Below, one piece after another: positions 12,189-62,040 of a stretch of 64,000 nucleotides of DNA (position 1 is its first letter; each line of letters begins with the position of its first letter). The stretch lies in NCBI RefSeq assembly GCF_003703475.1, contig NZ_RDQM01000012.1:1-64000 (forward strand), written 5' to 3'. The notes below the pieces were generated by a model, which saw nothing but the letters and a program-made list of their open reading frames with translations, did not search any database and was not told the DNA's origin. The stretch comes from Allofranklinella schreckenbergeri. Lineage in GTDB: Bacteria > Pseudomonadota > Gammaproteobacteria > Burkholderiales > Burkholderiaceae_C. A program made the translations under genes and the position numbers.

Positions 12189-12346
12189 TTGAATTCCAAC
12201 TCAAGAAAACCCATGCATTGATGGATATGCCGAAACAAGGCAGTTTTTTTGCCTTTGAAACACAAATTGATATCAAATCAAACGAAAACAAAGCCCGCTC
12301 CGGGCATGCCGAAACGGGCTGTTTTTCATTCTTTTGAATTGGAATT
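12189..12346 (+). repeat. Two tandem copies of the AT-rich palindromic element (locus 1)
   Basis: Copy A (about 12189-12268) has core ATGCCGAAACAAGGCA with arms AACTCAAGAAAAC and TTTTTTTGCCTTTGAAA. Copy B (about 12263-12346) has core CGGGCATGCCGAAACGGGC with arms AAATCAAACGAAAAC and TTCATTCTTTTGAATT. GAATTCCAA and TTGGAATTC bound the pair as an outer inverted repeat. It lies 10 bases after the proC stop. Confidence 0.8.
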
Positions 12347-12355
12347 CTGGGCCAC

Positions 12356-13165
12356 TCAGCCAAACTCCCGCGCCATCTCCGCAGCGCGGGTGCTGCTGGC
12401 CTGGATGGCCGCCATGAAATGCGCCTGTAGATCGCAGGCATCCATGGCCGAAGTGGCCGCAAACGTCGTGCCGCCTTTCGAGGTGACGCGCTGGCGCAAG
12501 ACCTCGGGCGGCTCATCGGAAGCCGCGGCCAGCGCCGCCGCGCCTTCAAACGTGGCCACCGCCAAGCGATAAGCCTGCGCACGCGTCAAGCCCAGCGATT
12601 CGCCCGCTTGCTGCATGGCCTCAAGAAAGTAAAACACATAGGCTGGACCGGAGCCTGAGATCGCCGTCACCGCATCCAGCAAAGCCTCCTGCTCTACCCA
12701 TTGCACTTGGCCAACGGCCTGGGCAATGCGCTGCGCAAGCTGGCGGTCGGCCTCGCTCACCGAAGGGGCCGCAAACAGGCCCGTCATGCCCTTGCGGATC
12801 AGGGCCGGGGTATTGGGCATGGCCCGCACGATGCGCGCGCTGGCCAGCCAGCCCTGCAAGGATGGGGTCGTCACCCCCGCCGCAATGCTGAGATGCAAGC
12901 TGGCGCCCAGCAACGGCCGCAATGCCAGGGCCACTTCTTTGAGCACCTGCGGCTTCACGGCCCAGACCACGCAAGCAGCCTCTGCCAACGTGGCATCGCC
13001 TTGCGACTGGACGGCGATGGCGAAATCGCGCTCCAGCGCAGCCGCCGTCGGCGCATGCGGCTCAATAACCGTAATGGCTTGCGCGGGCCAGCCGCTATCG
13101 ATCAAGCCGCCAATGATGGCGCGGGCCATATTGCCGCCGCCCACGAAGGCAATACGAGAAGTCAT
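12356..13165 (-). CDS. proC: Pyrroline-5-carboxylate reductase
   Basis: Last step of proline synthesis: NAD(P)H-dependent reduction of pyrroline-5-carboxylate, in the cytoplasm. 269 residues from MTSRIAFVGGGNMA, the conserved start; an ATG 36 bases upstream would add residues outside the family alignment. The Rossmann motif is FVGGGNMARAIIGGL and the signature region AISGSGPAYVFYFLEAM is intact, with TSKGGTT following. No companion YggS-type gene is adjacent, although that is common elsewhere. Confidence 0.96.
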   Translation of the reverse strand: MTSRIAFVGGGNMARAIIGGLIDSGWPAQAITVIEPHAPTAAALERDFAIAVQSQGDATLAEAACVVWAVKPQVLKEVALALRPLLGASLHLSIAAGVTTPSLQGWLASARIVRAMPNTPALIRKGMTGLFAAPSVSEADRQLAQRIAQAVGQVQWVEQEALLDAVTAISGSGPAYVFYFLEAMQQAGESLGLTRAQAYRLAVATFEGAAALAAASDEPPEVLRQRVTSKGGTTFAATSAMDACDLQAHFMAAIQASSTRAAEMAREFG

Positions 13166-13285
13166 GGGGATACTTTGCCTTTCTTCGTCTGGCGCAGGCA
13201 TTGGCAGCGCTGTTCACGCGCGTGGCGCGAATGGGCCAATGCCGTGCTCAATGCGGTTTGGGGGAGATGCGCAGTACAAAACGCA

Positions 13286-13306
13286 GACGGGCCTCAAAGG
13301 CCCGTC
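13286..13306 (-). terminator. Possible terminator after the 55-residue protein gene
   Basis: GACGGGCCT-CAA-AGGCCCGTC is a perfect 9-bp stem. On the minus strand it is followed by TGCGTTTTG, a weak T tract. It lies 55 bases past the stop of the gene at 13361-13528. The rest of this gap shows nothing recognisable. Confidence 0.45.
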
Positions 13307-13360
13307 GTCGAAGTTGTGCAACGCCGCAAGCGGCCCGCATGCGTGCCGCGGGCGCGGCGA

Positions 13361-13528
13361 TCAGCCTTGGTGCGCGCGCTTGCCGGGGTTTTTCTTGCTG
13401 CGTGTGTGCACGCCACGCTCTTTGCTCACGCGCTGGCCGCCACCTTGCTTGGGAATGCTGTAGCCCTTGGGAGCGGGCAGCGGGGGGGTGAATTTGCGAT
13501 CGGCTTCGGTGACGATTTTGTTGCCCAT
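13361..13528 (-). CDS. Small basic protein of unknown function (55 aa)
   Basis: MGNKIVTEADRKFTPPLPAP opens a 55-residue protein rich in Lys/Arg (ERGVHTRSKKNPGKRAHQG at the end). An AGGAA ribosome binding site sits six bases upstream of the ATG. A proline-rich N-terminal third and a strongly basic C-terminal tail suggest a nucleic-acid- or ribosome-binding role, but I do not recognise the family. The reading frame has the codon preferences of neighbouring real genes (GC-ending third positions). It lies between proC and the DUF3579 gene on the same strand. Confidence 0.65.
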   Translation of the reverse strand: MGNKIVTEADRKFTPPLPAPKGYSIPKQGGGQRVSKERGVHTRSKKNPGKRAHQG

Positions 13529-13627
13529 GATGGTTCCTGAATAAAAAGGGAGGGGTAAAAGAAAGGGGCGGATTTTAATGGAGAGCCGCCGGGGCTTGTC
13601 GATTGGGCGCGGCCGCCAGTGCGGGCA

Positions 13628-13990
13628 CTAGGAAAGATGCGCCTCACGGGCCGCTACAGCGTCTGCCTCGGCGGGCGCGGGCTGGGAATCGGGCAGCAAG
13701 CACGCTTCAATGACTTCCAGGTGGTTGTCGCGGGCGAAATTCATCACGAAATCCCATGCCATCGGCTCGTGCTCGCGCAACGCGGCATTCACCACCACAC
13801 AGCGGGTGCCGTCGAGGACGGTGGGCACGCACCAGGGGGAATAGCTCAGGCGATGCCCCCGCGAGCCGGGCGGGCGAAACTGGCTCATGACGCCAGCGAG
13901 CCGCTCGGACCAATCGCTGGGGCGAAAAATCCGTCCATCTTTGGTTTTACCCAAGATGAAAATTTCTTTAAGAGGCGGGGTACTGGACAT
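13628..13990 (-). CDS. DUF3579 family protein
   Basis: A 120-residue soluble protein starting MSSTPPLKEIFILGKT and containing RPSDWSERLAGVMSQF, the hallmark of DUF3579, a family largely confined to betaproteobacteria. The conserved tail HEPMAWDFVMNFARDNHLEV is also present. Its role is unknown in any organism as far as I know. It precedes the 55-residue basic protein on the same strand by about 100 bases; co-transcription is possible. Confidence 0.85.
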   Translation of the reverse strand: MSSTPPLKEIFILGKTKDGRIFRPSDWSERLAGVMSQFRPPGSRGHRLSYSPWCVPTVLDGTRCVVVNAALREHEPMAWDFVMNFARDNHLEVIEACLLPDSQPAPAEADAVAAREAHLS

Positions 13991-14074
13991 GGATGCGCGC
14001 CGCGGTCGCCGCAGCGAGGAAAAACGAAGCGCGGGATTCTACCGACTCCACTGATTTCAGGCCCTTCCTGTGGT

Positions 14075-14119
14075 CATGCCCCTTGGGCCGGGTCGATGCG
14101 ACTGCGCCAAAGGGGCATG
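14075..14119. other. Long-loop hairpin downstream of tynA
   Basis: CATGCCCCTT at 14075-14084 pairs perfectly with AAGGGGCATG at 14110-14119 across a 25-base loop. It lies 60 bases past the tynA stop; there is no T run on the minus strand, so it is not a standard terminator. Confidence 0.4.
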
Positions 14120-14178
14120 TTTCGGGGGGCATCCGGATTTGTTCACGCGCTCGGCGCGCGGGGATCCCGAACAGGCTT

Positions 14179-16509
14179 TCAGGGATGGCGGTGCGGCCGG
14201 TCTTCTTTCATCTCCTCTGGCGCCAGCAAATCCATCGTCGGGGTTTCATTGAAGAAGTTCCAGGGCTTGAGCAGCACATGGACCCATTCGGTCGGCATGA
14301 TGGGCCACTCTTCCGCCCGGGCAACGTGGGTGGTGCCCGTGGTCAGCCACACGACGTTGTCGGTGTTGACGATGTTTTCGTCATCGGCGGTGAACTGGCC
14401 CAGGCCTGTGTCCTTGTCAGAGCGGTTCGGGTATTTGCCTTCCGGGAAAAGCTCATCTGGCTTGTATTGGGTCACCCATAGCTGCTTGTCCATGAAGCGC
14501 AAGCGGTTGTAAATCCATTCGTCCTGGCCGAAGTTGGCTCCCTTGGCCACGGGGTGGGTGCCGCCTGCGTAGGGGATGAGCTGGTAGGACACGGGGTTGC
14601 CCACGCGGTTGAGTTTGTTGGTGTTGCTCAGCAGGCGGACCGTGCCGGGATCGAATTTCTGCGCGGCCTGCTGTTCGTTGGGCACGGTGCGGGTCCGGGT
14701 TTGCATCGTGCTGGTGCGCGGGCCGCCACGGGGGTTGGGCGCGACGACGGGGTCGATTTCGGTCAAGGTGTTTTTCTCGCCATCCACGTCCAGATCCAGC
14801 CGGAAGTTGTAGATGTGCTGGTGCGTGGTGCCTACGATGTTGTGGTCGATCAAGGTGCCAAACCGGGTGTCCTCCTCGGCGGTAGGGTCTTGCATGGTTC
14901 GGGCCTTGACGCCTTTGACGGCTTCAAGGCCGGTGGCACCCGCATTGATGCCGATGGTGCCGTTTTGCGCAAACACCCAGTCGAAGATGTAGTCGTAGTT
15001 GCCCACGGTGCTGATCCAGCGCACGACCAGCTCACGGCGCTCGGCGCTGACGTTGGGGCGGCCCATTTCCTGGTGCTTGTATTCGGGGCCGGCGTAACGC
15101 TCGAACACGGCAATCGCGTTGGGAATGAGGGTAGGCCGGCCGGTGTAGTCGGGCAGCGTTGCATCGAGCAACACGGCGTTTTGCGGCACGTCCTTGCCGC
15201 GTTCGATGGGGGAGGTCAGGGTGCCCATGCCGTACTCGCCGGAGTCCAGGTAAGCCTTGTAGTACCAGCCCACGTCCGGGTCGCCATAGGGCACGATCAT
15301 GCCGCCCAGCGAGCCTTCATAGAGGACTTTGCGCTTGACGCCCTTGTCGTTGTAGGTGACGGTGGAGAGCAGCAGGCCCACGCGTGAATCCAGGCGGAAG
15401 TGAAATTCCCAGTTCTGCCAGCGCAGGGTGTTGCCCGCAATGGAGTAGCTTTTGCCTTGCGGCTCCAGAATTTCCAGCGGCTTGATGGCGGGGCGCTTGG
15501 CGCGGTCGCTGCCGTCATAGGGGCGTGCAGCCATCGGGACGGGGATGACGCCCGCGTCCTCCACCTTCACCACCGCTTTCTTTTCCAGATCGACCACGGC
15601 AATCAGGTTCTCGATGGGGTGCGCCCAGTAGTTGCCATCGCCAGTGTCCAGATAGCTGGCAACCTTCAGCAAGCGGTCTTCCTGTTTGAGTTGGTCCTTG
15701 CCGCCGAAATAACCCACCGTCAGCGGTGTGGCCACGGCTTTGGAAACATCCTTGATGCCGCGCTTGGCCAGCGCGGCGGCGTACTCCGCACTGGCTTCAA
15801 TGGCCTTTTGCACGGTTTCGAAATCGTCGAGCAGCACCATGCCGTGCGCACCTTTGATCTCCTTCCAGCCCTGCACTTGCCTGGCGCCATAGTCCACTGT
15901 GCCCTCGTACACCTTCTTGCCGTCAAGAATGGTGAAGACTGCTTTTCGCCCTGCGCTGACGGGCTTGCCCTGCAAGGCGAATTCCCAGACTTGCTCTTTG
16001 GGCGGCGTTTTGAGCGAGATCTCGGCAAAACGCATGCCGGGCTTGAAGTGGCCGCTGGCTTTGATGATGCCCACTGCGGCGGTGAGCTCGTCTGCGGTCA
16101 GCGGGTTGAGCGGGCTGGGCTTTTCCTCGATGACGAATGTGGTGTCCAGCCCCGACTGGAACACGTCGTTGATGAATTCTTCGGCCACCATGGCCTGGCC
16201 GTTCTGGATCGTCACCGGCACGTTCAGCTTCAACGGTTTGCCGTTGACCAGGATGGTGTGCGCCCCTGGCTTGGCGCGCACCATGGTGCTGTTGCGCTGG
16301 ATGTCGTAAAGACCGGCGTAGTCGTCCCAGCGCACGGTGGCACCGAAATCCTTGAGCGTTTGCTCCAGCGGCACCATCTTGGCCGGTGCGCCATGGGCCA
16401 GCGCCTGGCCGGCGGGCGCCAACAACGCACTGCCAAGAGCCAGCGCCAGCGCGCTGCGGCGAAACAAGGATGCGGGCTGCGCAAATGGGTGGTGGGGAGT
16501 CGTCATCAT
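14179..16509 (-). CDS. tynA: Copper-containing primary-amine oxidase (tyramine/phenylethylamine oxidase)
   Basis: Periplasmic quinoprotein that oxidises aromatic monoamines to aldehydes, releasing ammonia and hydrogen peroxide. 776 residues, near the E. coli TynA length. A signal peptide is evident (SLFRRSALALALGSALLAPA, then AQALAHG). The N-terminal copper-amine-oxidase D1 domain is retained. The topaquinone precursor is Tyr505 in NYDY; copper ligands are His563 and His565 in GTTHQHIYNF and His728 in GTTHVARAEEW. Two consecutive ATGs start the gene behind GAGAGGAA. feaB follows upstream on the same strand and feaR beyond it, which supports the aromatic-amine assignment. Confidence 0.95.
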   Translation of the reverse strand: MMTTPHHPFAQPASLFRRSALALALGSALLAPAGQALAHGAPAKMVPLEQTLKDFGATVRWDDYAGLYDIQRNSTMVRAKPGAHTILVNGKPLKLNVPVTIQNGQAMVAEEFINDVFQSGLDTTFVIEEKPSPLNPLTADELTAAVGIIKASGHFKPGMRFAEISLKTPPKEQVWEFALQGKPVSAGRKAVFTILDGKKVYEGTVDYGARQVQGWKEIKGAHGMVLLDDFETVQKAIEASAEYAAALAKRGIKDVSKAVATPLTVGYFGGKDQLKQEDRLLKVASYLDTGDGNYWAHPIENLIAVVDLEKKAVVKVEDAGVIPVPMAARPYDGSDRAKRPAIKPLEILEPQGKSYSIAGNTLRWQNWEFHFRLDSRVGLLLSTVTYNDKGVKRKVLYEGSLGGMIVPYGDPDVGWYYKAYLDSGEYGMGTLTSPIERGKDVPQNAVLLDATLPDYTGRPTLIPNAIAVFERYAGPEYKHQEMGRPNVSAERRELVVRWISTVGNYDYIFDWVFAQNGTIGINAGATGLEAVKGVKARTMQDPTAEEDTRFGTLIDHNIVGTTHQHIYNFRLDLDVDGEKNTLTEIDPVVAPNPRGGPRTSTMQTRTRTVPNEQQAAQKFDPGTVRLLSNTNKLNRVGNPVSYQLIPYAGGTHPVAKGANFGQDEWIYNRLRFMDKQLWVTQYKPDELFPEGKYPNRSDKDTGLGQFTADDENIVNTDNVVWLTTGTTHVARAEEWPIMPTEWVHVLLKPWNFFNETPTMDLLAPEEMKEDRPHRHP

Positions 16510-16605
16510 GATGGTTCCTCTCGTTGTGCGAAGCGATAGGGGTGCGCCCCAAAGCGGGAGCGCGCCTGGCGGTGATCGGCGGCGCCCTGGCTGCCGGACA
16601 CCCGT

Positions 16606-18114
16606 TTACGGCGCAGCAGCGCCAGACGCCGGATGCGCAATGCAGACGGACTTGATCTCCGTGCAGCCCTCGACGGCATGGCGCCCGAACTCGCGCCCCA
16701 TGCCTGATTGCTTGTAGCCGCCAAAGGGCATGCTGGGGTCAAGCAGCACATGGGTGTTCACCCAGACCGTGCCTGCTTCAACACGCGGAATCAGGCTCAT
16801 GGCGCGGTTGATGTCGCGGGTCCACAGGCTGGCGCCCAAGCCGTATTGGCTGTCGTTGGCCAGACGCAAGGCTTCTTCATCGTCATCAAAACGCAGTACG
16901 GACAGCACCGGGCCGAAGATCTCCTCGCGGGCCACCGTCATCGCCTGTGAAACGCCGGACAGCACGGTGGGCTGCACGAAAAAGCCAGCTCCACCCACAG
17001 GCTGGCCGCCTGCTGCCAGTTGCGCCCCCTCCTGGCGGGCCGAGGCGATGTAGCTCTCGATGGATTGCTGCTGGCGGCGCGAAACCACCGGGTTGACTTG
17101 TGCCCCCGGGTCCAGCCCCGGCCCCAGCGTGAGCGTGGACACCGCCGCCGCCAGCGCATTGACAAAATCGTCATGGCGCGAGGCGTGAACGTAAATGCGC
17201 GAGGCCGCAGCGCACACCTGCCCCTGGTTGAGCAAGCCCCCCAGCATCACCCCCTGGACGGCTTGCTCGATATCGGCATCGGCAAATACCAGCATGGGGT
17301 TTTTGCCGCCCAGCTCCAGCGTGAAGCGGGCCATGTGCTCCAGCGCCGCATGCCCTACCCGCCTGCCCGTTTGGGTCGAGCCGGTGAACGACACCTTGGC
17401 CACCAACGGGTGCGACACCAGCGCCTGCCCGGTTTCGCCCCCGCCCGTGACCACATTGAACACCCCCGGTGGCACGCCAGCCTCCAGCGCCAGCTCGGCC
17501 AGACGCAGCGCCGAGAGCGGCGTCTCCGGCGATGGCTTGATGACCACGCTGCACCCCGCCGCCAGCGCAGGCATCACCTTCCAGGCGGCAATCATCATCG
17601 GGAAATTCCAGGGCACGATGCCTGCCACCACACCCACCGGCTCGCGCCGCGTATAGCCCGTGTAGCGCATGCCCGGCGGAATGGGGATGGACAAGTCCAG
17701 CGACTCCCCGTGCAGCTTGGTGGCCCAACCCGCCATGTAACGCATGAACTCCACCGTCGCCGCCACATCGAGCATGCGCGACAGGTTGATGGACTTGCCC
17801 TGGTTGATCGTTTCCAGTTGCGCCAACTCCTCGGCATGCGCCTGCACCAGCGCGGCAAAGGCCAGCAAAATGCGCTCGCGCTCTGCCGGGCGCAAACCAC
17901 TCCAGCGGCCATCGCGCCAGGCTGTGTGGGCGCTGCGAACCGCCGCATCCACCACGTCGGCATCGCCATCGCCCGCCATGGCGATCACGTCCCCCGTGGC
18001 CGGGTTGTAAACCGGCAAGGTGCGCGCCGTCGCAACGGCCTTGCCCTCGATGAAACTGCCATGCGTGCGGGCCAGAAAAGCCTGCACGGCAGCCAACAGT
18101 TCAACTTGCGCCAT
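16606..18114 (-). CDS. feaB: Phenylacetaldehyde dehydrogenase
   Basis: NAD-dependent aldehyde dehydrogenase of 502 residues that would oxidise (hydroxy)phenylacetaldehyde released by TynA to (hydroxy)phenylacetate. Start MAQVELLAAVQAFL follows a GGAGAC ribosome binding site; the longer open frame upstream lacks homology. Family motifs are WNFPMMIAAWK, FTGSTQTGRR, catalytic Glu in TLELGGKNP and catalytic Cys in LNQGQVCAAASR. Substrate choice comes mainly from the tynA-feaB-feaR context. The start of tynA is 97 bases downstream, so the two are probably one transcript. Confidence 0.9.
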   Translation of the reverse strand: MAQVELLAAVQAFLARTHGSFIEGKAVATARTLPVYNPATGDVIAMAGDGDADVVDAAVRSAHTAWRDGRWSGLRPAERERILLAFAALVQAHAEELAQLETINQGKSINLSRMLDVAATVEFMRYMAGWATKLHGESLDLSIPIPPGMRYTGYTRREPVGVVAGIVPWNFPMMIAAWKVMPALAAGCSVVIKPSPETPLSALRLAELALEAGVPPGVFNVVTGGGETGQALVSHPLVAKVSFTGSTQTGRRVGHAALEHMARFTLELGGKNPMLVFADADIEQAVQGVMLGGLLNQGQVCAAASRIYVHASRHDDFVNALAAAVSTLTLGPGLDPGAQVNPVVSRRQQQSIESYIASARQEGAQLAAGGQPVGGAGFFVQPTVLSGVSQAMTVAREEIFGPVLSVLRFDDDEEALRLANDSQYGLGASLWTRDINRAMSLIPRVEAGTVWVNTHVLLDPSMPFGGYKQSGMGREFGRHAVEGCTEIKSVCIAHPASGAAAP

Positions 18115-18370
18115 CGTTGTGTCTCCATCTGTGGTTGTGGCTTCATGGCCAGGCCCTGCAACACCGGGGCTGGCAGGCCCCTTTTTGCGCACACCGGCCA
18201 TGTCGTGATGGAGCAGATGGTAGAAACATTGCCCTTGGCAGGCTTTGCTGTGCCTGCCCAATTCATGCGCCACACTGCCAGCCTGGGCCGCCTTGCGCAC
18301 CCCTGCCACGCACAAGGCGCCGTGATGCAGCCGTGCGCAGCGAACTGCCAACCGTCAGCCCCGCCCACCG

Positions 18371-19318: not shown

Positions 19319-19503
19319 GCCAAACCTTTTTGGGGGAATCTGAAAAAAACGCATCCGGGGCCCCCGGAAAACACCCGGGAGCCGCCATGCATGCGGCGCA
19401 AAACAGTGTCAAAAAATTAAAACACGAAGCTTCCCGCAGCCGGTTCAGGGTTTTCCCAATCTCTCGGCGGACCTGCGTGATCCGCGCGCCCGCCTCGCAT
19501 AAT

Positions 19504-19580
19504 TATAAATCAAAGTAAAAATGATTTATTGTATTAGTTGCCATAAATGCAATATTTTATTTCTTTTTGACTTGGAAAAT
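19504..19580 (+). repeat. AT-rich palindromic element (locus 2)
   Basis: Left arm TATAAATCAAAGTAAAAAT, centre TTGCCATAAATGCAA, right arm ATTTTATTTCTTTTTGACTT. It is one of the few copies lying between two 5' ends (feaR and the outer-membrane protein gene) rather than beside a stop codon. The remainder of the 19319-19742 gap has no gene. Confidence 0.75.
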
Positions 19581-19742
19581 CAAACACCCCACTCGCCCCG
19601 GCCTGCTTTTGTCACGCCGGGACATGCATTTGGCAGATTCCCGCTATGCCCCAAAAAGCAAATTGACGGTTAATGGGCAGGCGCGCGCACCGCCGGGCGC
19701 CTGCCCGTCCAGACAACCCAAAAAACAAGGAGCACCCGCCTC

Positions 19743-21435: not shown

Positions 21436-21522
21436 ATTACAAATCAATAAGAAATATTGAAAATCTATTTCGGCAATGCCAGTCTTAAATTTTCAATTCA
21501 ATAATTTACTTTGATTTGTAAT
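21436..21522 (-). repeat. AT-rich palindromic element (locus 3)
   Basis: ATTACAAATCAATAAGAAAT and ATTTACTTTGATTTGTAAT form the outer arms, an almost perfect 19-bp inverted repeat. The centre read on the minus strand is ATTGCCGAAA. It lies 16 bases after the thiolase stop codon, in the same orientation as that gene. Confidence 0.85.
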
Positions 21523-27061: not shown

Positions 27062-27142
27062 AAATTACCAATCAAAAGAAAATAAAAAATGTCATTTCAG
27101 CAAATATGCATTGATATGAATTTTCTCATGAATTGGAAATCA
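27062..27142 (-). repeat. AT-rich palindromic element (locus 4)
   Basis: AATTACCAATCAAAAGAAAAT on the left matches the family right arm on the opposite strand; the centre on the minus strand is TTGCTGAAATGACA, a diverged core. It starts nine bases after the hemY stop and is upstream of the rpsF promoter. Confidence 0.7.
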
Positions 27143-30445: not shown

Positions 30446-30532
30446 TCAATCAAATCAAGAGAAAAACAAAACAAATACCATCATGCCGAAAAAGGCATTT
30501 TTATTTTCTTTTGATATGTAAAATAAAAGCCC
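30446..30532 (+). repeat. AT-rich palindromic element (locus 5)
   Basis: Arms AATCAAATCAAGAGAAAAAC and TTTTCTTTTGATATGTAAAAT flank the core ATGCCGAAAAAGGCAT. It starts eight bases after the response-regulator stop and separates that gene from its kinase. Confidence 0.85.
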
Positions 30533-32474: not shown

Positions 32475-32520
32475 AAAAAACCGGCTTGAGGTTCGCCTTC
32501 AAGCCGGTTTTTTATTTTTA
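32475..32520 (+). terminator. Terminator after the RRM protein gene
   Basis: AAAAAACCGGCTTGA-GGTTCGCC-TTCAAGCCGGTTTTTT: 15-bp stem ending in a T run, then TATTTTTA. It is 60 bases past the stop and touches the next palindromic element. Confidence 0.92.
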
Positions 32521-32592
32521 GATCAACAGAAAATCCACTTCACCCCTATAAAGCCGAAACAAGTGGATTTTGTTTCTTATTGAATTGTAATT
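32521..32592 (+). repeat. AT-rich palindromic element (locus 6)
   Basis: GAAAATCCACTT pairs with AAGTGGATTTTG around AAGCCGAAAC; the inner stem sequence differs from other copies on both sides yet still pairs. Outer arms GATCAACAG and TTGAATTGTAA. It lies between the terminator and the convergent coaD stop. Confidence 0.82.
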
Positions 32593-35717: not shown

Positions 35718-35810
35718 AAAATTACACATCAAAGGAAATAACAAAATCCTCTCACGGCATGAAGATATTGCCACGAGAGGATTTTTTATCAACCTTTGAT
35801 TTAAAAAATT
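35718..35810 (-). repeat. AT-rich palindromic element (locus 7)
   Basis: AAAATCCTCTC pairs with GAGAGGATTTTTT around GGCATGAAGATATTGCC; outer arms ATTACACATCAAAGGAAAT and ATCAACCTTTGATTT. It has one of the longest perfect inner stems in the family and differs from the standard core. Starts six bases after the metQ-like stop. Confidence 0.85.
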
Positions 35811-38575: not shown

Positions 38576-38847
38576 TAGAGCGTGTTATGCACTTTTCGCC
38601 CCCCGCGAGAGCGCCCCGGCGTGTGCAGTGCAAGGCGCCGTCCCCGCCGCAGCCTGGCGGGCTGCAAGGGGGCGGCAACGCCGCAATGCGCATGCCGGGG
38701 CGCTCTCCCTTCGGGCTGGCCCCAAAACCATGCACTCGCCGCGTTGGCCCGCTTGCCAAGGCAGCCAGCCTTGGCGGCGCGCGCCGCCTTGCGATTACAC
38801 GGTTTTGGGGCCAGCGCGGGGGAGCGCAAAGTGCATAACACGCTCTA
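38576..38847. mobile_element. 272-bp MITE-like element with IS5-type ends
   Basis: TAGAGCGTGTTATGCACTTT at the left and its inverted copy AAAGTGCATAACACGCTCTA at the right end form terminal repeats of about 31 bp with two mismatches; both match the IS end at 109-126. Inside are two large hairpins: GAGAGCGCCCCGGC (38607) with GCCGGGGCGCTCTC (38694), and GCTGGCCCCAAAACC (38715-38729) with GGTTTTGGGGCCAGC (38801-38815), the latter a perfect 15-bp pair. There is no transposase gene. Confidence 0.8.
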
Positions 38848-39041: not shown

Positions 39042-39122
39042 AATTGCAATTCATTATAAAAATATCTTCAACACTACCATGCCAAAAGCAGGTGATTTCA
39101 TTTCCTTTGATATATAAAATAA
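39042..39122 (+). repeat. AT-rich palindromic element (locus 8)
   Basis: Core CATGCCAAAAGCAGGTG and right arm TTTCCTTTGATATATAAAATA; the left arm is diverged (AATTGCAATTCATTATAAAAA). It lies six bases from the nitronate monooxygenase stop codon. The rest of the 38848-39127 gap holds no gene. Confidence 0.72.
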
Positions 39123-40180: not shown

Positions 40181-40235
40181 GAGGGGGGGTTCCCGAGGGG
40201 GGGAGAGCGTTGTTTTCGGCCAAGCCTATACACAC

Positions 40236-40305
40236 CAATGCAAATTAAATACATTGATACAATTGCCGAAACATGGCAATTTTATTTCTTTTTGAAATGT
40301 AAAAT
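40236..40305 (+). repeat. AT-rich palindromic element (locus 9)
   Basis: Core ATTGCCGAAACATGGCAAT, right arm TTTATTTCTTTTTGAAATGT, left arm GCAAATTAAATACATTG. It abuts the trpD stop (TGA at 40305-40307), so the repeat provides the sequence right after the gene. Confidence 0.78.
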
Positions 40306-41498: not shown

Positions 41499-42068
41499 AT
41501 GACGTTCAAGCGCCTCCTCTTTCTTGCCGCCCTGCTGGCGCTGCTGACCGGGGCGGGCCTGCTATGGCAGATGCGCCAGCAAGGCATGGAGCTGCGCTTC
41601 ACAGCGGAGCAATTGCAGCAAGCCTTGGCCGCTCGCCCGCCCATTCACAAAGCCTACGGGCCGCTGGAGCTGACGCTGCAAGATCCGCGCGTGAGCTTGA
41701 GCGAGCGCAGCACCCGCATCCGCGCCCGCCTGCGCGTCAACGTTGCCGTGCCGTCTCTGGGCCGTTCCTGGCAAGGCGATGTGGAGGCCTCCAGCGGGCT
41801 GCGCTACGAGGCCGCCGAAGGCGCTTTCTACCTCAACGCCCCGGCCATCGAGCGCATCAGCGCGCCAGGCATGCCCGAGCGCTACGCCACGCTGGCAGGG
41901 CAGGCGGCCTCTTCGGCGCTGCAACGGTTGTATGCCTTGCGCCCGGTGCATGTGCTTGAGCCGACTGCCAAAGGGCTGGCCACACGCATGCTGCTGCGCG
42001 AGGTGCATGTTCACAACGGGGCACTGGTGGCCAAATTGGGCATACCCGATATTTCAAATCAAGAATAA
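41499..42068 (+). CDS. DUF1439 family protein
   Basis: 189 residues with an N-terminal hydrophobic segment ([18 protein letters not shown]) that anchors or exports it. The domain resembles DUF1439 (YceB-like) beta-sandwich proteins of unknown function. The last six codons (DISNQE) and the TAA lie within the left arm of palindromic element 10. An in-frame TTG nine bases upstream is an alternative start. Divergent from trpD. Confidence 0.75.
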
Positions 42069-42130
42069 AATTCGATTATTTGAATTAATGCCGAAAATAG
42101 GCATTTTCTTTTCTTTTGATTTATAAAAAA
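42050..42130 (+). repeat. AT-rich palindromic element (locus 10)
   Basis: Arms ATTTCAAATCAAGAATAAAAT and TTTTCTTTTCTTTTGATTTA flank ATGCCGAAAATAGGCAT. The left arm contains the last codons and stop of the DUF1439 gene. Confidence 0.85.
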
Positions 42131-44530: not shown

Positions 44531-44606
44531 ATCCAATCAAAGTAAAAATAGATTTATACACATCATGCCGAAACAAGGCAATTTTGTTTCTTTTTGATAT
44601 GTAAAT
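44531..44606 (+). repeat. AT-rich palindromic element (locus 11)
   Basis: A reference copy: CCAATCAAAGTAAAAATAG, core ATGCCGAAACAAGGCA, then ATTTTGTTTCTTTTTGATA and TGTAAAT. It lies between the convergent DUF454 and Na/Pi cotransporter genes. Confidence 0.9.
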
Positions 44607-52287: not shown

Positions 52288-52366
52288 TTTCAATCATAGG
52301 AAAATGAGATTCATATACAACATGCCTAAACGGCATGGTTTATTTTCCTATTGATTGCCAAAAATA
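52288..52366 (+). repeat. AT-rich palindromic element (locus 12)
   Basis: TTTCAATCATAGGAAAAT, core CATGCCTAAACGGCATG (perfect CATGCC/GGCATG pair), then GTTTATTTTCCTATTGATTGC. Five bases after the grpE stop; the dnaK promoter lies just beyond it. Confidence 0.85.
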
Positions 52367-54422: not shown

Positions 54423-54467
54423 ACGCGCCACTGGCGGCCTGACACACAGCCCATGCGCTGAACCCGC

Positions 54468-55694: not shown

Positions 55695-55754
55695 TGCGCC
55701 ATCGGCCGGCGGCGGCGCCCAAGCTTGGGCGCAACCGGGGCCGACCCAAATTGA

Positions 55755-55825
55755 TCCAATCAAAGGAAATTCAACTTCAATAATAAATTGCCGAAACAAG
55801 GCAATTTTGTTTCCTTTTGAATTGC
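55755..55825 (+). repeat. AT-rich palindromic element (locus 13)
   Basis: CCAATCAAAGGAAATTCAAC, core TTGCCGAAACAAGGCAA, then TTTTGTTTCCTTTTGAATTGC. Lies about 60 bases after dnaJ; upstream of gpmA. Confidence 0.9.
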
Positions 55826-55958
55826 ATGAAAAAGCATTTCAGCGCCCTGGTTGCCGCTGCACGCATTCGGAGCCATCCTTGGCAACGCGCGCATTCTGCA
55901 CAAGCACGGGCGTAAAATGACGCCCCTTTTTTGGCCCGCTCACACGCATTTGCCCACC

Positions 55959-56651
55959 ATGCACAAGCTCGTACTGATACGCCACGGCGAATCCACCTGG
56001 AACCTTGAAAACCGCTTCACCGGCTGGACGGATGTGGACCTCACCGCCACCGGCGTGGCCCAGGCGCAAGAGGCAGGCCAGCGCCTCAAGGCCGCTGGTT
56101 TTGTTTTCGACAAGGCCTACACCAGCGTGCTCAAGCGCGCCATCCACACGCTGTGGCATTGCCTGGATGCGATGGACGCAACCTGGCTGCCGGTGGAGAA
56201 ATCCTGGCGCCTCAACGAGCGCCACTACGGCGGCCTGCAAGGGCTGAACAAGGCCGACATGGCCCAGCAATACGGCGACGAGCAAGTGCTGATCTGGCGC
56301 CGCAGCTACGACACGCCGCCGCCCGCTCTGGAGGCGGGCGATGCGCGCAGCGAGCGCGGCGACCGCCGCTACGAGGGGCTGGCGCCCGAGCAAATCCCGC
56401 TGACCGAGTGCCTGAAAGACACCGTTGCGCGCGTACTGCCGTATTGGGAATCGCACATCGCGCCCGATATCCGCGCGGGCAAGCGCCTGGTGATTGCCGC
56501 GCATGGCAACTCGCTGCGCGCGCTGGTGAAATACCTCGATGGCATCTCCGATCAGGACATCGTCTCGCTCAACATCCCCAACGGCACGCCGCTGGTGTAT
56601 GAGCTGGACGAGGCGCTGCGCCCCATCCGCCGCTACTATCTGGAGTCCTGA
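55959..56651 (+). CDS. gpmA: 2,3-bisphosphoglycerate-dependent phosphoglycerate mutase
   Basis: 230 residues, cytoplasmic glycolytic enzyme interconverting 3- and 2-phosphoglycerate. [12 protein letters not shown] carries the catalytic phosphohistidine (RHGE); [18 protein letters not shown] has the second His. [14 protein letters not shown] is also conserved. Start [12 protein letters not shown]; 36 residues upstream are in frame but unrelated. An S41 protease gene follows 84 bases later. Confidence 0.97.
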
Positions 56652-56735
56652 GTCGTGCCATTGGGCCGCGCGGCTGCGCGCGCCCGCCACCTTGGGGCCG
56701 CTTTTCTTCTCTCCCCTCTGATATCTCTCTCTGAC

Positions 56736-58202
56736 ATGGGCCAGAAACTCCACATCGCAGGCTGGATCGGCATTGGCGCGCTCGCGGGCACGCTGGCGAC
56801 TTTCTCCCTGCACTCCACCGCCCGCAACACCGTCGCGCCGCTGCCGCTGGAGGAGATTCAGCAGCTGGCGGCGGTGTATGGCCTGATCAAATCGGACTAC
56901 GTCGAGTCGGTGGACGACAAAAAACTCATCTCCGACGCCATCTCCGGCATGGTGTCGGGGCTGGATCCGCACTCGCAGTATTTCGACAAAAACAGCTTCA
57001 AGGAATTTCGCGAAGGCACGACGGGCCGTTTTGTCGGCGTCGGCATCGAAATCACGCAGGAGGACGGGCTGATTCGCATCGTCTCGCCCATCGAAGGCTC
57101 GCCCGCCGACCGCGCCGGGCTGATGACCAACGACCTCATCACCAAAATCGACGACACCGCCGTCAAGGGCCTGAGCCTGACCGAAGCCGTCAAGCGCATG
57201 CGCGGCCAGCCACGCACCGATGTGGTGCTGACCATCTTCCGCAAGGACGAAAACCGCACCTTCACCGTCAAGATCACGCGCGAGGAGATCAAAACCCGCT
57301 CGGTCAAGGGCGAAGTCATTGAGCCGGGCTACGCCTGGGTGCGCCTGTCGCAATTCCAGGATCGCACGGTGGAAGATTTCGTAAGCAAAATCAACGAGAT
57401 CTACACCAAAGAGCCGAACCTCAAAGGCCTGGTGCTGGACTTGCGCAACGACCCCGGCGGCCTGCTGGATGCGGCCGTAGCCATCTCGGCGGCCTTCCTG
57501 CCCGCCAACGTCAAGGTGGTGAGCACCGACGGCCAACTGCCCGAGAGCAAGGCCACCTACACCACCAAGGCGGCGGACTACACCTCCAAACGCCTGGCCA
57601 GCGTGCTGGCAGGCGACCCGCTGCGCCGCCTGCCCGAAGCGCTGAAAAAAGTGCCGCTGGTGGTGCTGGTCAACGAAGGCTCGGCCTCGGCCAGCGAAAT
57701 CGTCGCCGGCGCGCTGCAAGACCACAAGCGGGCCACCATCATGGGCAGCCAGACCTTTGGCAAAGGCTCGGTGCAAACCGTGCGCCCGCTGGGGCCGGAT
57801 ACGGGCATCAAGCTGACCACGGCGCTGTATTACACGCCCTCGGGCCGCTCCATCCAGGCCAAAGGCATTGAGCCGGACATCGCGCTGGACGAAACCGCCG
57901 AAGGCAGCCCCTTTGCCTCGCTGCGCGTGCGCGAGGCCGATTTGCACAAGCACCTGGGCACGGAAGAAGCCCCGGAAGAAGCCGCGCGCAAGGAAAAAGA
58001 GCGCGAGGCCGCCATCAAGCGGCTGGAGGAAGAAAACAAGGCCAACGAAGGCCAGCCCGCCCGCCGTCTGCCGCAGTTCGGCTCGCCCGAGGACTTCCAG
58101 TTGCAGCAAGCGCTCAACCAGCTCAAGGGCCTGCCGGTGCAAGTGGCCAAGGCCAAGGATGAGAAAGAGGCCGCGCCAGCCCAGGCTGAGCCAGGCAAGT
58201 GA
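56736..58202 (+). CDS. ctpA: C-terminal processing protease, S41 family
   Basis: 488 residues: an N-terminal signal/anchor (IAGWIGIGALAGTLATFSL), a PDZ domain (about 90-170; GRFVGVGIEITQEDG, DRAGLMTNDLITKIDD), and the S41 catalytic domain with Ser316 (NEGSASASEI) and Lys343 (TFGKGSVQT). A charged C-terminal helical tail (EEAARKEKEREAAIKRLEEE) extends beyond the core. Processes periplasmic proteins near their C-terminus. Start MGQKLHIAG; an upstream extension has no homology. Confidence 0.95.
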   Translation: MGQKLHIAGWIGIGALAGTLATFSLHSTARNTVAPLPLEEIQQLAAVYGLIKSDYVESVDDKKLISDAISGMVSGLDPHSQYFDKNSFKEFREGTTGRFVGVGIEITQEDGLIRIVSPIEGSPADRAGLMTNDLITKIDDTAVKGLSLTEAVKRMRGQPRTDVVLTIFRKDENRTFTVKITREEIKTRSVKGEVIEPGYAWVRLSQFQDRTVEDFVSKINEIYTKEPNLKGLVLDLRNDPGGLLDAAVAISAAFLPANVKVVSTDGQLPESKATYTTKAADYTSKRLASVLAGDPLRRLPEALKKVPLVVLVNEGSASASEIVAGALQDHKRATIMGSQTFGKGSVQTVRPLGPDTGIKLTTALYYTPSGRSIQAKGIEPDIALDETAEGSPFASLRVREADLHKHLGTEEAPEEAARKEKEREAAIKRLEEENKANEGQPARRLPQFGSPEDFQLQQALNQLKGLPVQVAKAKDEKEAAPAQAEPGK

Positions 58203-58226
58203 GGCGGGCGTCTGGCGCCCGGCACG

Positions 58227-58257
58227 GAAAAAGCGGCGGGTTTCTCGCCGCTTTTTT
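58227..58257 (+). terminator. Terminator after ctpA
   Basis: AAAAAGCGGCGGG-TTT-CTCGCCGCTTTTTT, a G:C-rich stem with A and T flanks, 25 bases past the stop. The remaining 58203-58512 gap contains a palindromic repeat and nothing else I recognise. Confidence 0.9.
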
Positions 58258-58268
58258 CATGGGCGTTG

Positions 58269-58346
58269 AATTTCAATCAAAGTGAAATTATTTTCATGCA
58301 TAACATTCCATAACAGCATGATTTTATTTCCTTTGATTTGTAAAAA
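58269..58346 (+). repeat. AT-rich palindromic element (locus 14)
   Basis: TTTCAATCAAAGTGAAATT and ATTTTATTTCCTTTGATTTG flank a diverged centre CATTCCATAACAGCATG. Placed directly after the ctpA terminator. Confidence 0.8.
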
Positions 58347-58512
58347 ATCCCCGCTTCAAGGTATGCGGCAACGCCGTCGCTCATGCGCTGCCAGGAGGCT
58401 CTCAGGGATAATCCGCATCCGTTTGCAGGCCCTGCGCCTTCACCCCCATTTCGCCTTTATCCCGCTTTTTTATCCCGCCTTTTTTGGCCCGCTTTTTGTT
58501 TCGCCCTTTGCC

Positions 58513-59958
58513 ATGACCCCTGAGCTACTTCTCGAACAACTGCAACACATCGTCGGCGCCGAGCACGCCCGCAACGACGGCGACCTCAGCGCCTGGGAGC
58601 AAGACTGGCGCCAACTGGCCCAGGGCCGCGCGCTGGCGGTGGTCTCGCCCGCCAATACCGAGCAAGTCGCCGCCGTCGTGCAAGCCTGCGCGGCAGCCAA
58701 AAAGGCAGGGCTGGGCGTGTCCATCGTGCCGCAGGGCGGCAACACCGGGCTGGTGCTGGGCAGCACGCCCGACGACTCCGGCATGCAAGTGGTGCTCAGC
58801 CTGCGCCGCATGAACAGCGTGCGCGCCATCGACCGGCATAACCTCTCCATCACGGTGGATGCCGGCTGCATCCTGCAAAACGTGCAAGAGGCCGCCGCCG
58901 CCCAGGGCCTGCTGTTCCCCTTGAGCCTGGCGGCCGAAGGCAGCTGCGTCATCGGCGGCAATCTGGCGGCCAATGCGGGCGGCACGCAAGTGGTGCGCTA
59001 TGGCAACACGCGCGAGCTGTGCCTGGGGCTGGAGGTGGTGACTGCCGATGGCCAGATCTGGCACGGCCTCTCGGGCCTGCGCAAGAACAACACCGGCTAC
59101 GACCTGCGCCATTTGATGATCGGCAGCGAGGGCACGCTGGGCATCATCACCGCCGCCACCATGAAGCTCTACCCCCAGCCTGCGGCCGTGTGCTGCGCCT
59201 GGCTGGCCGTCGATTCGCTAGAGAGCGCCGTGGGCCTGCTGGCGCTGGCGCAGCAGCATCTGCACTCGGGCCTGACCGGCTTTGAAACCATGGAGAGCGA
59301 CGCCCTGCGCCTGGTGGAAAAACACATGCCGCACATGCGCATGCCCATTGATGTGGCCGCCGGCCAGGCCTTCGTGCTGCTGGAATACTCTGACGACGAA
59401 AGCGAAGACCGCGCCCGCGCGCGCCTGGAGGGGCTGCTCGAAGCGGCCTTCGAAGCCGAGCTGCTGACCGACGGCGCCGTAGCGCAAAGCCTGGAGCAAG
59501 CCCAGCGCATGTGGGACATCCGCGAGCACATCACCCTGGCCCAGGCGGCCGAGGGCCTGCACCTCAAGCACGACATCTCCGTGCCCACCTCCAGCATCCC
59601 CGCCTTCGTGCAGCGCGCCAAAGAGGCTTTGCAGCAGGCGCTGCCCGGCGCGCGCGTCATCAACTTCGGCCACCTGGGCGACGGCAACCTGCACTTCAAC
59701 GTGCAAGCGCCCGAAGGGGCCGATCCGCGCCAGTTTGTCGATACCTGCCAGCGCCAGGCCGAAGCCGCCATTTACGACTGCGTGGCGGCGTTTGACGGCT
59801 CCTTCTCCGCCGAGCACGGCGTGGGCCGCCTCAAGCGCCACGACCTGGCCCGCTACAAAGACCCTGTAGCCCTGGGCATGATGCGCGCCATCAAAACCGC
59901 GCTGGACCCGCTCAACCTGCTCAACCCCCACGCCTTGCTGCCCGATGCGGCGGCCTGA
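58513..59958 (+). CDS. FAD-linked D-2-hydroxyacid oxidoreductase (D-2-hydroxyglutarate/lactate dehydrogenase type)
   Basis: 481 residues. N-terminal FAD-binding 4 domain with PQGGNTGLVLGS and GNLAANAGGTQVVRYGNTRE; C-terminal FAD-oxidase domain with GHLGDGNLHFN and the metal/flavin region SAEHGVGRLKRHDL. The arrangement matches GlcD/D2HGDH enzymes that oxidise D-2-hydroxyglutarate or D-lactate and pass electrons to a flavoprotein or quinone. Start MTPELLLEQL; 77 residues upstream in frame are ignored. The Abi_2 gene begins 14 bases after its stop. Confidence 0.92.
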   Translation: MTPELLLEQLQHIVGAEHARNDGDLSAWEQDWRQLAQGRALAVVSPANTEQVAAVVQACAAAKKAGLGVSIVPQGGNTGLVLGSTPDDSGMQVVLSLRRMNSVRAIDRHNLSITVDAGCILQNVQEAAAAQGLLFPLSLAAEGSCVIGGNLAANAGGTQVVRYGNTRELCLGLEVVTADGQIWHGLSGLRKNNTGYDLRHLMIGSEGTLGIITAATMKLYPQPAAVCCAWLAVDSLESAVGLLALAQQHLHSGLTGFETMESDALRLVEKHMPHMRMPIDVAAGQAFVLLEYSDDESEDRARARLEGLLEAAFEAELLTDGAVAQSLEQAQRMWDIREHITLAQAAEGLHLKHDISVPTSSIPAFVQRAKEALQQALPGARVINFGHLGDGNLHFNVQAPEGADPRQFVDTCQRQAEAAIYDCVAAFDGSFSAEHGVGRLKRHDLARYKDPVALGMMRAIKTALDPLNLLNPHALLPDAAA

Positions 59959-59972
59959 GGCCAAGGCCATTC

Positions 59973-60965
59973 ATGCCCTACCCCAAGCCATGGAAAAGCC
60001 ATGCCGACCAACTGGCGCAGTTGATTGAGCGGGGCATGGCCGTCGCCGATCCGGCCCTCGCCGCAGAGAGCCTGGCGCGCATCGGCTACTACCGGCTTAG
60101 CGGCTATTGGTTTGCGTTTCGCCAGCGCAGCGGCGAGGTGTGCATGCTGGATGACAAGGGCGCCAAGCCGCGCCACGTCCGCACGCAGCGGCTGGTGCTG
60201 GACGTCTTCCGCGCAGGCGCGACGTTTCAAAATGCGGTGGACCTGTATGTGTTCGACAAGCGCTTGCGCCTGCTGGCGCTGGATGCGCTGGAACGCATCG
60301 AAGTGGTTTTGCGGGCCGATATTGCCCACACGCTGGGCCAACTCGACCCTTTCGCCTATATGAGGCCAGAGCTGTTGCACGCCGACTTCAGCACGCGCCT
60401 GGATCAAAACAGCGGCTTGAGCAAGCATCACACCTGGCTGAGCAAGCATGCGCAACTCATTGGCCGCTCCAAAGAGGAGTTTGTGCGCCACAACCGCGAA
60501 AAATACGGCCTGCCGCTGGCGATCTGGGTGGCTTGCGAGGTGTGGGACTTTGGCACCTTGTCAACGCTGTTCAGCGGTATGCGCGAAGGCGAGCAAGATG
60601 CCATTGCCAGCAGATACGGCCTGCGCAACGGGCGCATCTTCGCCACCTGGCTGCGCAGCCTGAACTACCTGCGCAACGTCTGCGCGCACCACAGCCGTTT
60701 ATGGAACCGCAACATCGTCGATCAACCCAAGCTGCCCCCCAGCGATGAGTTGCCTTGGGTAGCGCCCTTTGAGCAAGACAATCACGCACGCGCGCGCTGT
60801 TTTCTGCTGCTGAAAATCATCCGCCATTTGCTGCGCGTCATCCATCCGCGCTCAAGTTGGCCAAAGGCGATGCGCCAGCATCTGCACTCCTTCCCGAATC
60901 TGGCGCATCTCGATCTCAACCTGGCGGGCATGGGCGCGCCAGATCATTGGGATGCTGCATGGTGA
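59973..60965 (+). CDS. Abi_2/AbiD-AbiF-like HEPN protein
   Basis: 330 residues similar to the Abi_2 family of phage-abortive-infection proteins. MPYPKPWKSHADQLAQLIERGM and RIGYYRLSGYWFAFRQ are typical of the N-terminus; SLNYLRNVCAHHSRLWNR holds Arg234-Asn235 and His239, the Rx4H signature of HEPN RNases. It starts 14 bases behind the FAD oxidase, preceded by AAGG, suggesting shared transcription. No partner gene is seen; an upstream non-coding RNA of the kind reported for some AbiF genes has no room there. Defence role is inferred. Confidence 0.8.
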   Translation: MPYPKPWKSHADQLAQLIERGMAVADPALAAESLARIGYYRLSGYWFAFRQRSGEVCMLDDKGAKPRHVRTQRLVLDVFRAGATFQNAVDLYVFDKRLRLLALDALERIEVVLRADIAHTLGQLDPFAYMRPELLHADFSTRLDQNSGLSKHHTWLSKHAQLIGRSKEEFVRHNREKYGLPLAIWVACEVWDFGTLSTLFSGMREGEQDAIASRYGLRNGRIFATWLRSLNYLRNVCAHHSRLWNRNIVDQPKLPPSDELPWVAPFEQDNHARARCFLLLKIIRHLLRVIHPRSSWPKAMRQHLHSFPNLAHLDLNLAGMGAPDHWDAAW

Positions 60966-60991
60966 GCGCCTGCGCCCACAGCCAAGCCATG

Positions 60992-61042
60992 AAAAAACCC
61001 CTCAGCAGCTCTTCCAACCGAGGTTGGCGTCGCCGAGAGGGG
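60992..61042 (-). ncRNA. Structured element between the Abi_2 gene and thyA; possible minus-strand small RNA end
   Basis: CCCCTC (60998-61003) pairs with GAGGGG (61037-61042) and encloses CCAAC (61014) paired with GTTGG (61023). On the minus strand the outer stem is followed by TTTTTT, an intrinsic terminator although no gene on that strand ends there. The same region may also work as a plus-strand structure. Nature unproven. Confidence 0.4.
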
Positions 61043-61132
61043 CCGTGTTGGGGGCGATTCTAATTTTTTCCATTGAGCAACGCTATATAAACCCCCACGG
61101 TCAATCACCGTTTCAGAACTTGTACGCCCCCT

Positions 61133-61954
61133 ATGCCCGCCGCCAATCCCCCGCCCTCCGACCAATACGAAACTCTGCTGCGCCATGTGTTCGAGCACGG
61201 CACGCCCAAGGCCGACCGCACGGGCACGGGCACGCGCAGCGTGTTCGGCTACCAGATGCGCTTTGATCTGTCGCAGGGCTTTCCGCTGGTGACGACCAAG
61301 AAAGTCCACCTCAAATCCATCATCTGCGAGCTGCTGTGGTTTTTGCGCGGCGATGGCAATGCGCGTTGGCTGCAAGAGCGCGGCGTGACGATTTGGGATG
61401 AGTGGGCCGATCCGCAAACGGGCGATCTCGGCCCGGTCTATGGCGTGCAGTGGCGCTCATGGCCCACGCCCGATGGCCGCCACATCGACCAGATCGCCCA
61501 GGTCATCGAGACGCTGAAACACAACCCCGATTCGCGCCGCATCATCGTCAGCGCCTGGAACGTGGCCGAGCTGGACCAGATGGCGCTGATGCCCTGCCAT
61601 GCGTTCTTCCAGTTCTATGTGGCCGATGGGCGGCTCTCGTGCCAGCTCTACCAGCGCAGCGCCGATTTGTTTCTGGGCGTGCCCTTCAACATCGCCAGCT
61701 ATGCGCTGCTCACGCACATGGTGGCGCAGCAAACGGGCTTGCAGGTGGGCGACTTCATCTGGACGGGCGGCGACTGCCACATTTACGACAACCACGTGCA
61801 GCAGGTGCGCGAGCAACTCTCGCGCACACCTTACCCGTATCCGCAACTGCACATCGCACGCCGGCCAGCATCGATCTTTGATTACGCCTACGAGGATTTC
61901 GAGGTGCGCGATTACCAGCACCACCCGGCCATCAAGGCCCCGGTGGCGGTTTGA
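61133..61954 (+). CDS. thyA: Thymidylate synthase
   Basis: 273 residues; methylates dUMP to dTMP with methylene-tetrahydrofolate. [17 protein letters not shown] is the N-terminus and [10 protein letters not shown] holds nucleophile Cys155. [20 protein letters not shown] and DYAYEDFEV are conserved. Length is normal for the ThyA family. It has no folA neighbour here. A palindromic repeat begins seven bases after the stop. Confidence 0.97.
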
Positions 61955-61960
61955 TCCTTT

Positions 61961-62040
61961 ATAACAAATCAAAGTGAATTCAATTTCAATACCATGTTGC
62001 CAAAACAAGGTTATTTTATTTACTATTGATTTATAAAAAA
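61961..62040 (+). repeat. AT-rich palindromic element (locus 15)
   Basis: ATAACAAATCAAAGTGAATT, core GTTGCCAAAACAAGGTTAT, then TTATTTACTATTGATTTATA. Between thyA and the U32 gene; both transcribed from left to right. Confidence 0.82.

Follow-up and report, generated by a model that had tools for sequence, protein, structure and literature searches.

An AT-rich palindromic element at hundreds of gene ends in two related bacterial species

Introduction

Short AT-rich palindromes recur between the genes of Allofranklinella schreckenbergeri and raise the question of how they came to be there and what, if anything, they do. The stretch analyzed here, hereafter the window, comprises the first 64,000 nucleotides of contig NZ_RDQM01000012.1, part of a 2.82-Mb genome (G000), and holds 16 copies of the element at 15 loci. 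A sequence-only reading of the window had left the choice between a functional 3' element and a non-autonomous mobile repeat. Small interspersed repeats are usually seen as selfish or as occasional regulators. Comparison with a second genome of the same genus (G005) is compatible with a model in which the copies stem from an old burst of insertions resembling miniature inverted-repeat transposable elements (MITEs) and are now immobile and selected as an orientation-neutral, protein-binding 3' boundary. This model is put forward tentatively, at somewhat less than an even chance of being right.

The family occupies hundreds of gene ends in two related species and was found almost nowhere else in 858 partly overlapping genome searches of relatives. 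Its copies have barely moved since the species split, and certain columns of their alignment are constrained, which opens the domestication of repeats to a direct test in two genomes; that a fast interior sits next to frozen motifs is an unusual local pattern, and one that can be measured.

Results

The palindromic family in the window is confirmed as a real observation. A covariance model built on 13 window copies, run with filters off and E values up to 1, matches all 16 places previously read as AT-rich copies: the 13 training copies by construction at E <=1e-9, and the other three at 12197-12265 (E 9e-5), 21437-21518 on the minus strand (5e-4) and 35722-35803 (0.44). The last value is no better than the antisense matches of other copies; this copy is recognisable by eye, having the two ends as well as a very strong hairpin inside (fold z -6.41). 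The remaining eight matches of the model are known loci on the opposite strand. The arm motif ATTTCCTTTTGAT, with up to two mismatches, occurs 12 times in the window, always within elements, compared with 0.75 expected and with none of 100 shuffles reaching 12. GC content is 0.21-0.45 across the 16 copies, versus 54-67% per 4-kb step of the window.

The aligned copies share a core of about 72 bp with inverted ends, ATCAAAGKAAA on the left and TTTCYTTTTGAT on the right, and an AT-rich border of about 5-6 bp flanks the core on each side. The interior holds an asymmetric central motif, ATGCCRAAA, and a T-tract ahead of the right arm, and its inner left segment is variable; both A-tract and T-tract columns are conserved in an alignment of 209 copies. 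The size first given as 70-90 bp narrows to a near-constant core of 67-74 bp in all of 105 matches, and in a minor class the left side is extended by about 10 bp. The supposedly most frequent central hairpin, GCCGAAACAAGGC, is exact in just 3 of 16 copies and present with up to two mismatches in 7. Across 13 copies, 78.8% of 156 outer-arm cells are standard pairs, compared with 42-60% when the arms are slid by 1-3 columns; as such, the element has the terminal inverted repeats of a MITE. The core word TGCCGAAAC occurs 44 times within elements and 10 times outside them in 864 kb.

The spacing of the motifs was profiled by seeking right halves alone, with a threshold that shuffled upstream sequence passes in 4.2% of cases. 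Among 335 right halves from both genomes, the left motif lies 31 bp off in 255 and 30 or 32 bp off in 35. Rarer distances are 41-42 bp (8 halves), 21 bp (1) and 26 bp (1), as well as 15 bp in two low-scoring halves, and 33 have no left motif above threshold. These steps of about 10 bp suggest helical phasing, with both motifs on one face of the helix.

Copy density is far above chance. A hidden Markov model finds 209 copies in 864 kb of G000 at E <1e-3 (219 at E <0.1), or 242 per Mb, which extrapolates to 680-715 copies genome-wide; a model search of the whole genome gave at least 150 matches. G005 has 121 copies in 480 kb (252 per Mb), a density that may be inflated because its stretches came from contigs with known matches. 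About one third of G000 and one fifth of G005 were covered, and the G000 stretches were picked without counting copies, though some of their contigs had known matches. Neighboring copies within stretches stand a median of 2.8 kb apart.

Among 60 genomes including G000, 56 have no match and four do, namely G000, G005, G006 (two copies) and G009 (one copy). Two of 399 genomes match at the family level (G000 and G006, with G005 evidently undrawn) and one of 399 at the order level, in searches that used stricter filters, scored at most 12 candidates per genome and drew on overlapping groups. In its dnaJ region G003, also of this genus, is the same as Lampropedia hyalina DSM 16112, which puts the genus in or near Lampropedia. 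None of 15 dnaJ-region loci of named relatives (15 searched among 80) matches the model, and no match was obtained from plasmids with one element copy or from viral contigs with one exact element pattern. A phage origin was set aside, the lone partial match (48 of 86 bases, E 1e-4) to a Chryseobacterium phage being taken as chance. A sister family in G008 was likewise rejected, since the AT-rich patches there are mostly one island. That island (L210, about 4535-10352), in a genome of 65% GC, is possibly foreign DNA.

Both G006 copies are read from their surroundings as probable imports. One is surrounded by DNA that matches G005 at 98% across 1.87 kb and G000 at 88%, and the DNA around the other is 94% identical to G000 over 3.08 kb; the left part of the latter locus is about 79-80% identical to G008 and G001, and its right part 98% to G008. 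At two G006 loci, L033 and L035, kilobase segments seem to have been exchanged recently among species of the genus, and at L033 the similarity switch falls close to the element. Both L033 and locus L240 of G000 seem, by eye, to have upstream of a regular element another element-like copy, which is richer in GC and has an inner stem of its own. The single near-consensus copy of G009 (L032, 1501-1571) lies in DNA that neither G000 nor G005 matches closely and may be a lone insertion or a small import.

The sites themselves are nearly fixed between the two main genomes. Of 122 G005 copies (E <0.1), 46 can be placed in the G000 stretches, and 44 of these have a G000 copy, in the same orientation in every case. 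One of the two exceptions falls at a stretch edge; the other has about 0.9 kb of different DNA, a candidate insertion sequence. In the reverse comparison, which covers 47 of 219 G000 copies, 46 of the 47 testable sites are shared, the exception being a larger replaced segment. Because sites are common to both genomes and orientation is the same, little recent movement can have occurred. Recent transposition and the existence of subfamilies are both rejected, given these shared sites and a mean pairwise identity of 0.641 versus 0.640 in block-shuffled copies.

Forty ortholog pairs from the 44 shared sites (four sites with two hits were omitted) reveal strongly uneven divergence within the element. 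In high-information columns (1.4 bits or more across paralogs) 34 of 991 positions differ (3.4%), and in low-information columns 114 of 316 (36%), compared with 2111 of 24341 four-fold sites (8.7%) and 7.2% of other intergenic DNA. The imports in G006 behave similarly: one copy differs from G005 at 6 of 72 element positions and at 28 of 1758 neighboring positions more than 20 bp away, and the other differs from G000 at 7 of 72 and 153 of 2944, respectively, so that the fast interior appears in separate comparisons. Exchange between copies was considered as the source of interior change and gave no clear sign, mean best-paralog identity lying within 0.03 of block-shuffled copies.

The copies are nearly all intergenic, with 5 of 102 overlapping a called gene and one of these almost wholly. 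For the 102 of 105 copies (464 kb) with called neighbors on both sides, 67 gaps are codirectional, 29 convergent and 6 divergent, compared with 138, 44 and 40 among all gaps of at least 90 bp; divergent gaps are thus avoided. An element is present at 122 of 178 convergent and 114 of 270 codirectional gene ends (gaps of at least 60 bp, 864 kb), as judged with a simple codon-usage caller and with a convergent gap possibly counted from both ends. The median distance from stop codon to element is 22 nt in G000 and 27.5 nt in G005. Orientation relative to the upstream gene is unbiased: plus and minus number 52 and 62 at codirectional and 60 and 62 at convergent ends in G000, and 42 and 36 as well as 24 and 27 in G005. 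Because orientation is neutral, a strand-specific RNA role is disfavored.

Canonical terminators are found at 52 of 122 convergent ends with an element (some of them inside elements) versus 17 of 56 without, and at 25 of 114 versus 37 of 156 codirectional ends. In the element-free relatives the corresponding counts are 14 of 33 and 15 of 83 (G008) and 9 of 31 and 13 of 48 (G001). Since rates are similar with and without the element, in these relatives as well, the element has replaced no canonical terminators. A canonical terminator stands ahead of the element, often nearly abutting it, at 37 of 236 ends in G000 and 26 of 129 in G005, and a canonical score falls inside the element at 19 of 236 and 4 of 129, respectively. 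Most copies lack a GC-rich stem followed by a T-run. As such, the proposed functional 3' element is borne out in its location but not as a substitute for ordinary terminators.

The folding data offer limited backing for the earlier suggestion that structure is conserved rather than sequence. Whole-stretch fold z over the 16 folded stretches ranges from -6.41 to -0.04, and some copies fold poorly. Pairing covariation, tried as the main signal, was not found on the 13 window copies and is nearly absent on 209 copies and on 330 rows in which the two genomes are pooled and shared sites count twice. Pairing is best supported for columns 2-68, which at z 3.41 (p 8.8e-5) fall just outside the Bonferroni limit of 6.6e-5, and the column pairs that pass it (19-57 and 11-62) do not change in the direction of pairing. 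With pair covariation nearly absent, sequence blocks are therefore the main thing conserved. Real copies do fold better than half-chimeras, at -12.87 versus -11.29 kcal/mol in G000 (161 of 209 copies mapped cleanly) and -12.95 versus -11.31 kcal/mol in G005 (94 of 121), comparisons that are not independent because sites are shared. Joint swaps of both outer or both inner arms cost only 0.2-0.4 kcal/mol; the arms are therefore matched within copies. This within-copy pairing fits weak selection for paired arms as well as it fits mutation that makes palindromes.

Relatives lack the element at most of the sites compared, as expected of a MITE, and are too diverged for exact junctions to be read. 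Of the 12 rows with an element in the survey, which represent four independent sites, nine are from the grpE-dnaK gap (two of these from one genome), where the picture is mixed. Where relatives have gaps of 35, 3 and 132 bp, those with the element measure 127, 105 and 252 bp. The response regulator-kinase gap measures 115 bp with the element versus 43-78 bp without it in five relatives read on the forward strand, a comparison that leaves out G005, G006, G001 and G007, where the locus is on the minus strand. Relatives also lack the element at L033, and in the region 3' of dnaJ it is absent by eye from eight other genomes of the genus. Partial element matches in the stretches examined resembled degenerate copies. 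Direct repeats of at least 7 bp, sought as target-site duplications, flank 5 of 120 G005 copies versus 4.6 in shuffled flanks. A pooled diagonal test had pointed to such a duplication (direct identity z about 5); it perhaps reflects shared composition, and the per-copy test disagrees. The flanks evolve fast, which bears on this search. Since direct repeats of this length are no commoner than chance, transposition is deduced from the restriction of the family to one lineage and from the sites at which relatives lack it. The notion of a non-autonomous mobile repeat thus survives for the origin of the family, and the shared sites speak against current mobility.

Discussion

The most economical history has a single burst in the common ancestor of G000 and G005, after which mobility was lost and copies were retained under selection. 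Specifically, an AT-rich palindrome of about 84 bp with its 72-bp core would have spread as a MITE-like insertion to hundreds of 3' intergenic sites in that ancestor of the two species, and movement would then have ceased. Selection on the fixed motifs (the end motifs, ATGCCRAAA and the T-tract) would hold the copies in place. They may act as DNA, docking a putative protein in either orientation; this protein could mark or insulate the ends of transcripts and might, for instance, form a roadblock where genes converge. The DNA separating the motifs diverges about four times as much as four-fold sites do, perhaps because imperfect palindromes attract mutation. A bolder form of the proposal seems unlikely to us: that the burst supplied a large share of transcript ends with one DNA module, later turned into a general 3' boundary that a lineage-specific protein reads, with end motifs and core in helical phase and the rest a mutation hotspot diverging several times faster than silent sites.

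Several observations weigh against the proposed domestication. A candidate binding protein was not found; numbers of the HU/IHF family do not single out the clade, and no other DNA-binding family was searched. An extra HU/IHF copy was considered as partner and rejected, with three copies in eight genomes, two in G003 and none found in G009. In the spacing tally, a single old subfamily may account for the longer class, the two genomes contribute one or more sites twice, and one half sits at the half-turn spacing of 26. The flanks are themselves fast (18-21% within 20 bp of the core, dropping to 12% between 21 and 30 bp and to 6% past 300 bp), so a local process may also shape the columns. Because element-free gene ends diverge less (9% at convergent and 12% at codirectional ends over the first 20 nt, 3-8% further out), flanks beside elements are raised about twofold. 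In 22 of the 40 ortholog pairs some paralog is closer in the interior than the ortholog, making exchange between copies possible. The grpE-dnaK gap, 111-324 bp in relatives versus 210 bp, shows no clean insertion, and direct repeats of at least 7 bp flank only 5 of the 209 G000 copies versus 6.6 in shuffled flanks. The gene caller is crude, and the gain of about 1.6 kcal/mol in within-copy pairing over chimeras fits an RNA or cruciform role as well.

The same data can be read in other ways. If the elements were bidirectional AT-rich intrinsic terminators, with the A-tract, a variable inner stem looped by ATGCCRAAA and the T-tract serving both strands, their 3' position, the avoidance of divergent gaps and their presence at most scored convergent ends would follow, and the conserved tracts, the better pairing of inner arms within copies than in chimeras, the strong inner hairpins of a few copies (such as 35722-35803) and the occasional canonical score inside an element would agree. 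We nevertheless consider this unlikely: canonical terminators are neither depleted beside elements nor clearly commoner in the element-free G008 and G001, many elements stand 3' of one, one element lies within a response regulator-kinase gap, and a mean fold energy of only about -12.9 kcal/mol comes with almost no pair covariation. Lineage restriction, MITE-like inverted ends, tandem pairs, the within-copy pairing that any palindrome would show and the relatives without the element would also suit a dead or dormant selfish repeat without function, in which motif conservation would come from an unseen mobilizing enzyme or uneven mutation and the 3' bias from tolerated insertion. This account appears doubtful, given that high-information columns at fixed sites fall below the four-fold rate, that the copies look like independent draws without recent duplicates, and that almost no site differs between the genomes.

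Chromosome-organizing sites for a nucleoid protein, placed every few kilobases without a direct role in transcription, would accord with the regular spacing, the AT-richness in a GC-rich genome, the neutral orientation, the near-constant length and the phased motifs. They would not need the 3'-end bias or the avoidance of divergent gaps, though insertion tolerance could explain both, and the HU/IHF numbers are the same as in most relatives; we regard this as improbable. The domesticated burst remains the tentatively preferred model.

Relation to known repeats

The element belongs to the broad known kind of small interspersed palindromic repeats, from which its near-fixed sites, motif constraint and fast interior set it apart. 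DNA uptake sequences (DUS or USS) are clade-specific short words present in hundreds of copies, whereas the element is a 72-bp composite whose core words are mostly confined to it. Intrinsic bidirectional terminators also follow stop codons and contain a palindrome plus A- and T-tracts; in contrast to them, the element is not GC-rich, conserves loop and end sequences and coexists with canonical terminators.

REP and REPIN repeats, as described in PMC3733652, are short palindromic extragenic repeats in many copies, often 3' of genes and uneven between species, and are defined by a GTAG or CGTC tetranucleotide at one end. The element resembles them in its many short palindromic copies downstream of genes and differs in being AT-rich and longer, with a consensus (209 copies, by eye) that lacks either tag. 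Identity with a REPIN/RAYT system is rejected, the Y1 transposase (PF01797) having no match in G000 or in G005, the latter only 80% complete; the domain is present in 5 of 10 genomes of the genus. Because CGTC REPs appear to lack a dedicated transposase (PMC3733652), a missing RAYT alone would leave some REPs possible. ERIC, Correia/NEMIS, RUP and BOX are intergenic repeats with mobile-element features according to PMC3110155; compared by description, the element differs in being near-fixed between two species with no target duplication detected. The same paper describes the Beta-proteobacterial repeat element (BRE) as about 90 bp long, mostly intergenic and present in Betaproteobacteria including Comamonadaceae, with GC averaging 69% and no more than 29 copies in a genome. 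The element, at 18-45% GC among the matches listed and in hundreds of copies, is set apart from it by description rather than by sequence.

As far as Rfam goes, the statement that no named family fits holds up: at gathering score it finds only a tRNA in the window, and when one copy was searched permissively, the two hits obtained scored far lower. A description of this element sequence was not found in searches of open-licence papers, and PMC12306157, searched for Lampropedia, Comamonad and Burkholderiales, mentions none of them.

Copies across the window

The copies lie on the plus strand unless stated, with covariance-model scores given in bits. The leftmost locus holds a degenerate copy (12197..12265, 37 bits) in tandem with a second (12274..12344, 61.8 bits) that has the highest GC content of the 16 (45%). 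Such pairs, less than 50 bp apart, occur 10 times in the G000 stretches (864 kb) and 4 times in those of G005 (480 kb). Further copies follow at 19506..19577 (63.7 bits), at 21437..21518 on the minus strand (33.5 bits), a member of the longer class in which the left side gains about 10 bp and left-right spacing is 41 instead of 31, and at 27065..27135, again on the minus strand (65.4 bits). The copy at 30451..30521 (73.7 bits) occupies the gap between response regulator and histidine kinase genes, assigned at family level by NCBIfam, and that at 32519..32590 (72 bits) stands directly 3' of a GC-rich terminator-like hairpin (about 32475-32513). The copy with the long perfect inner hairpin (35722..35803) also belongs to the longer class; it is matched on the minus strand, an ambiguous call because the copy is near-palindromic, and the half-site scan places it on the plus strand with a spacing of 42.

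The right half of the window contains copies at 39047..39117 (67.1 bits), 40231..40302 (67.6 bits), 42055..42126 (65.3 bits) and 44533..44604 (80.9 bits), the last close to consensus. One copy (52290..52361, 66.1 bits) lies between grpE and dnaK, both assigned by NCBIfam. Another, close to consensus (55756..55827, 80.9 bits), stands 3' of the gene downstream of dnaK, a dnaJ candidate by its position and zinc-finger repeats only. The final two are at 58273..58343 (72 bits) and, 3' of a thymidylate synthase gene (NCBIfam), at 61965..62036 (80 bits); these two and the copy after the dnaJ candidate have orthologs in G005.

The window furthermore contains a second repeat family, a GC-rich unit of about 272 bp at 38576-38847 whose 29-nt inverted ends are 93% complementary, with a half copy at 97-126. 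In the G000 stretches (864 kb) there are 22 occurrences of the end of this unit, TAGAGCGTGTTATG, including four pairs about 255-260 bp apart.

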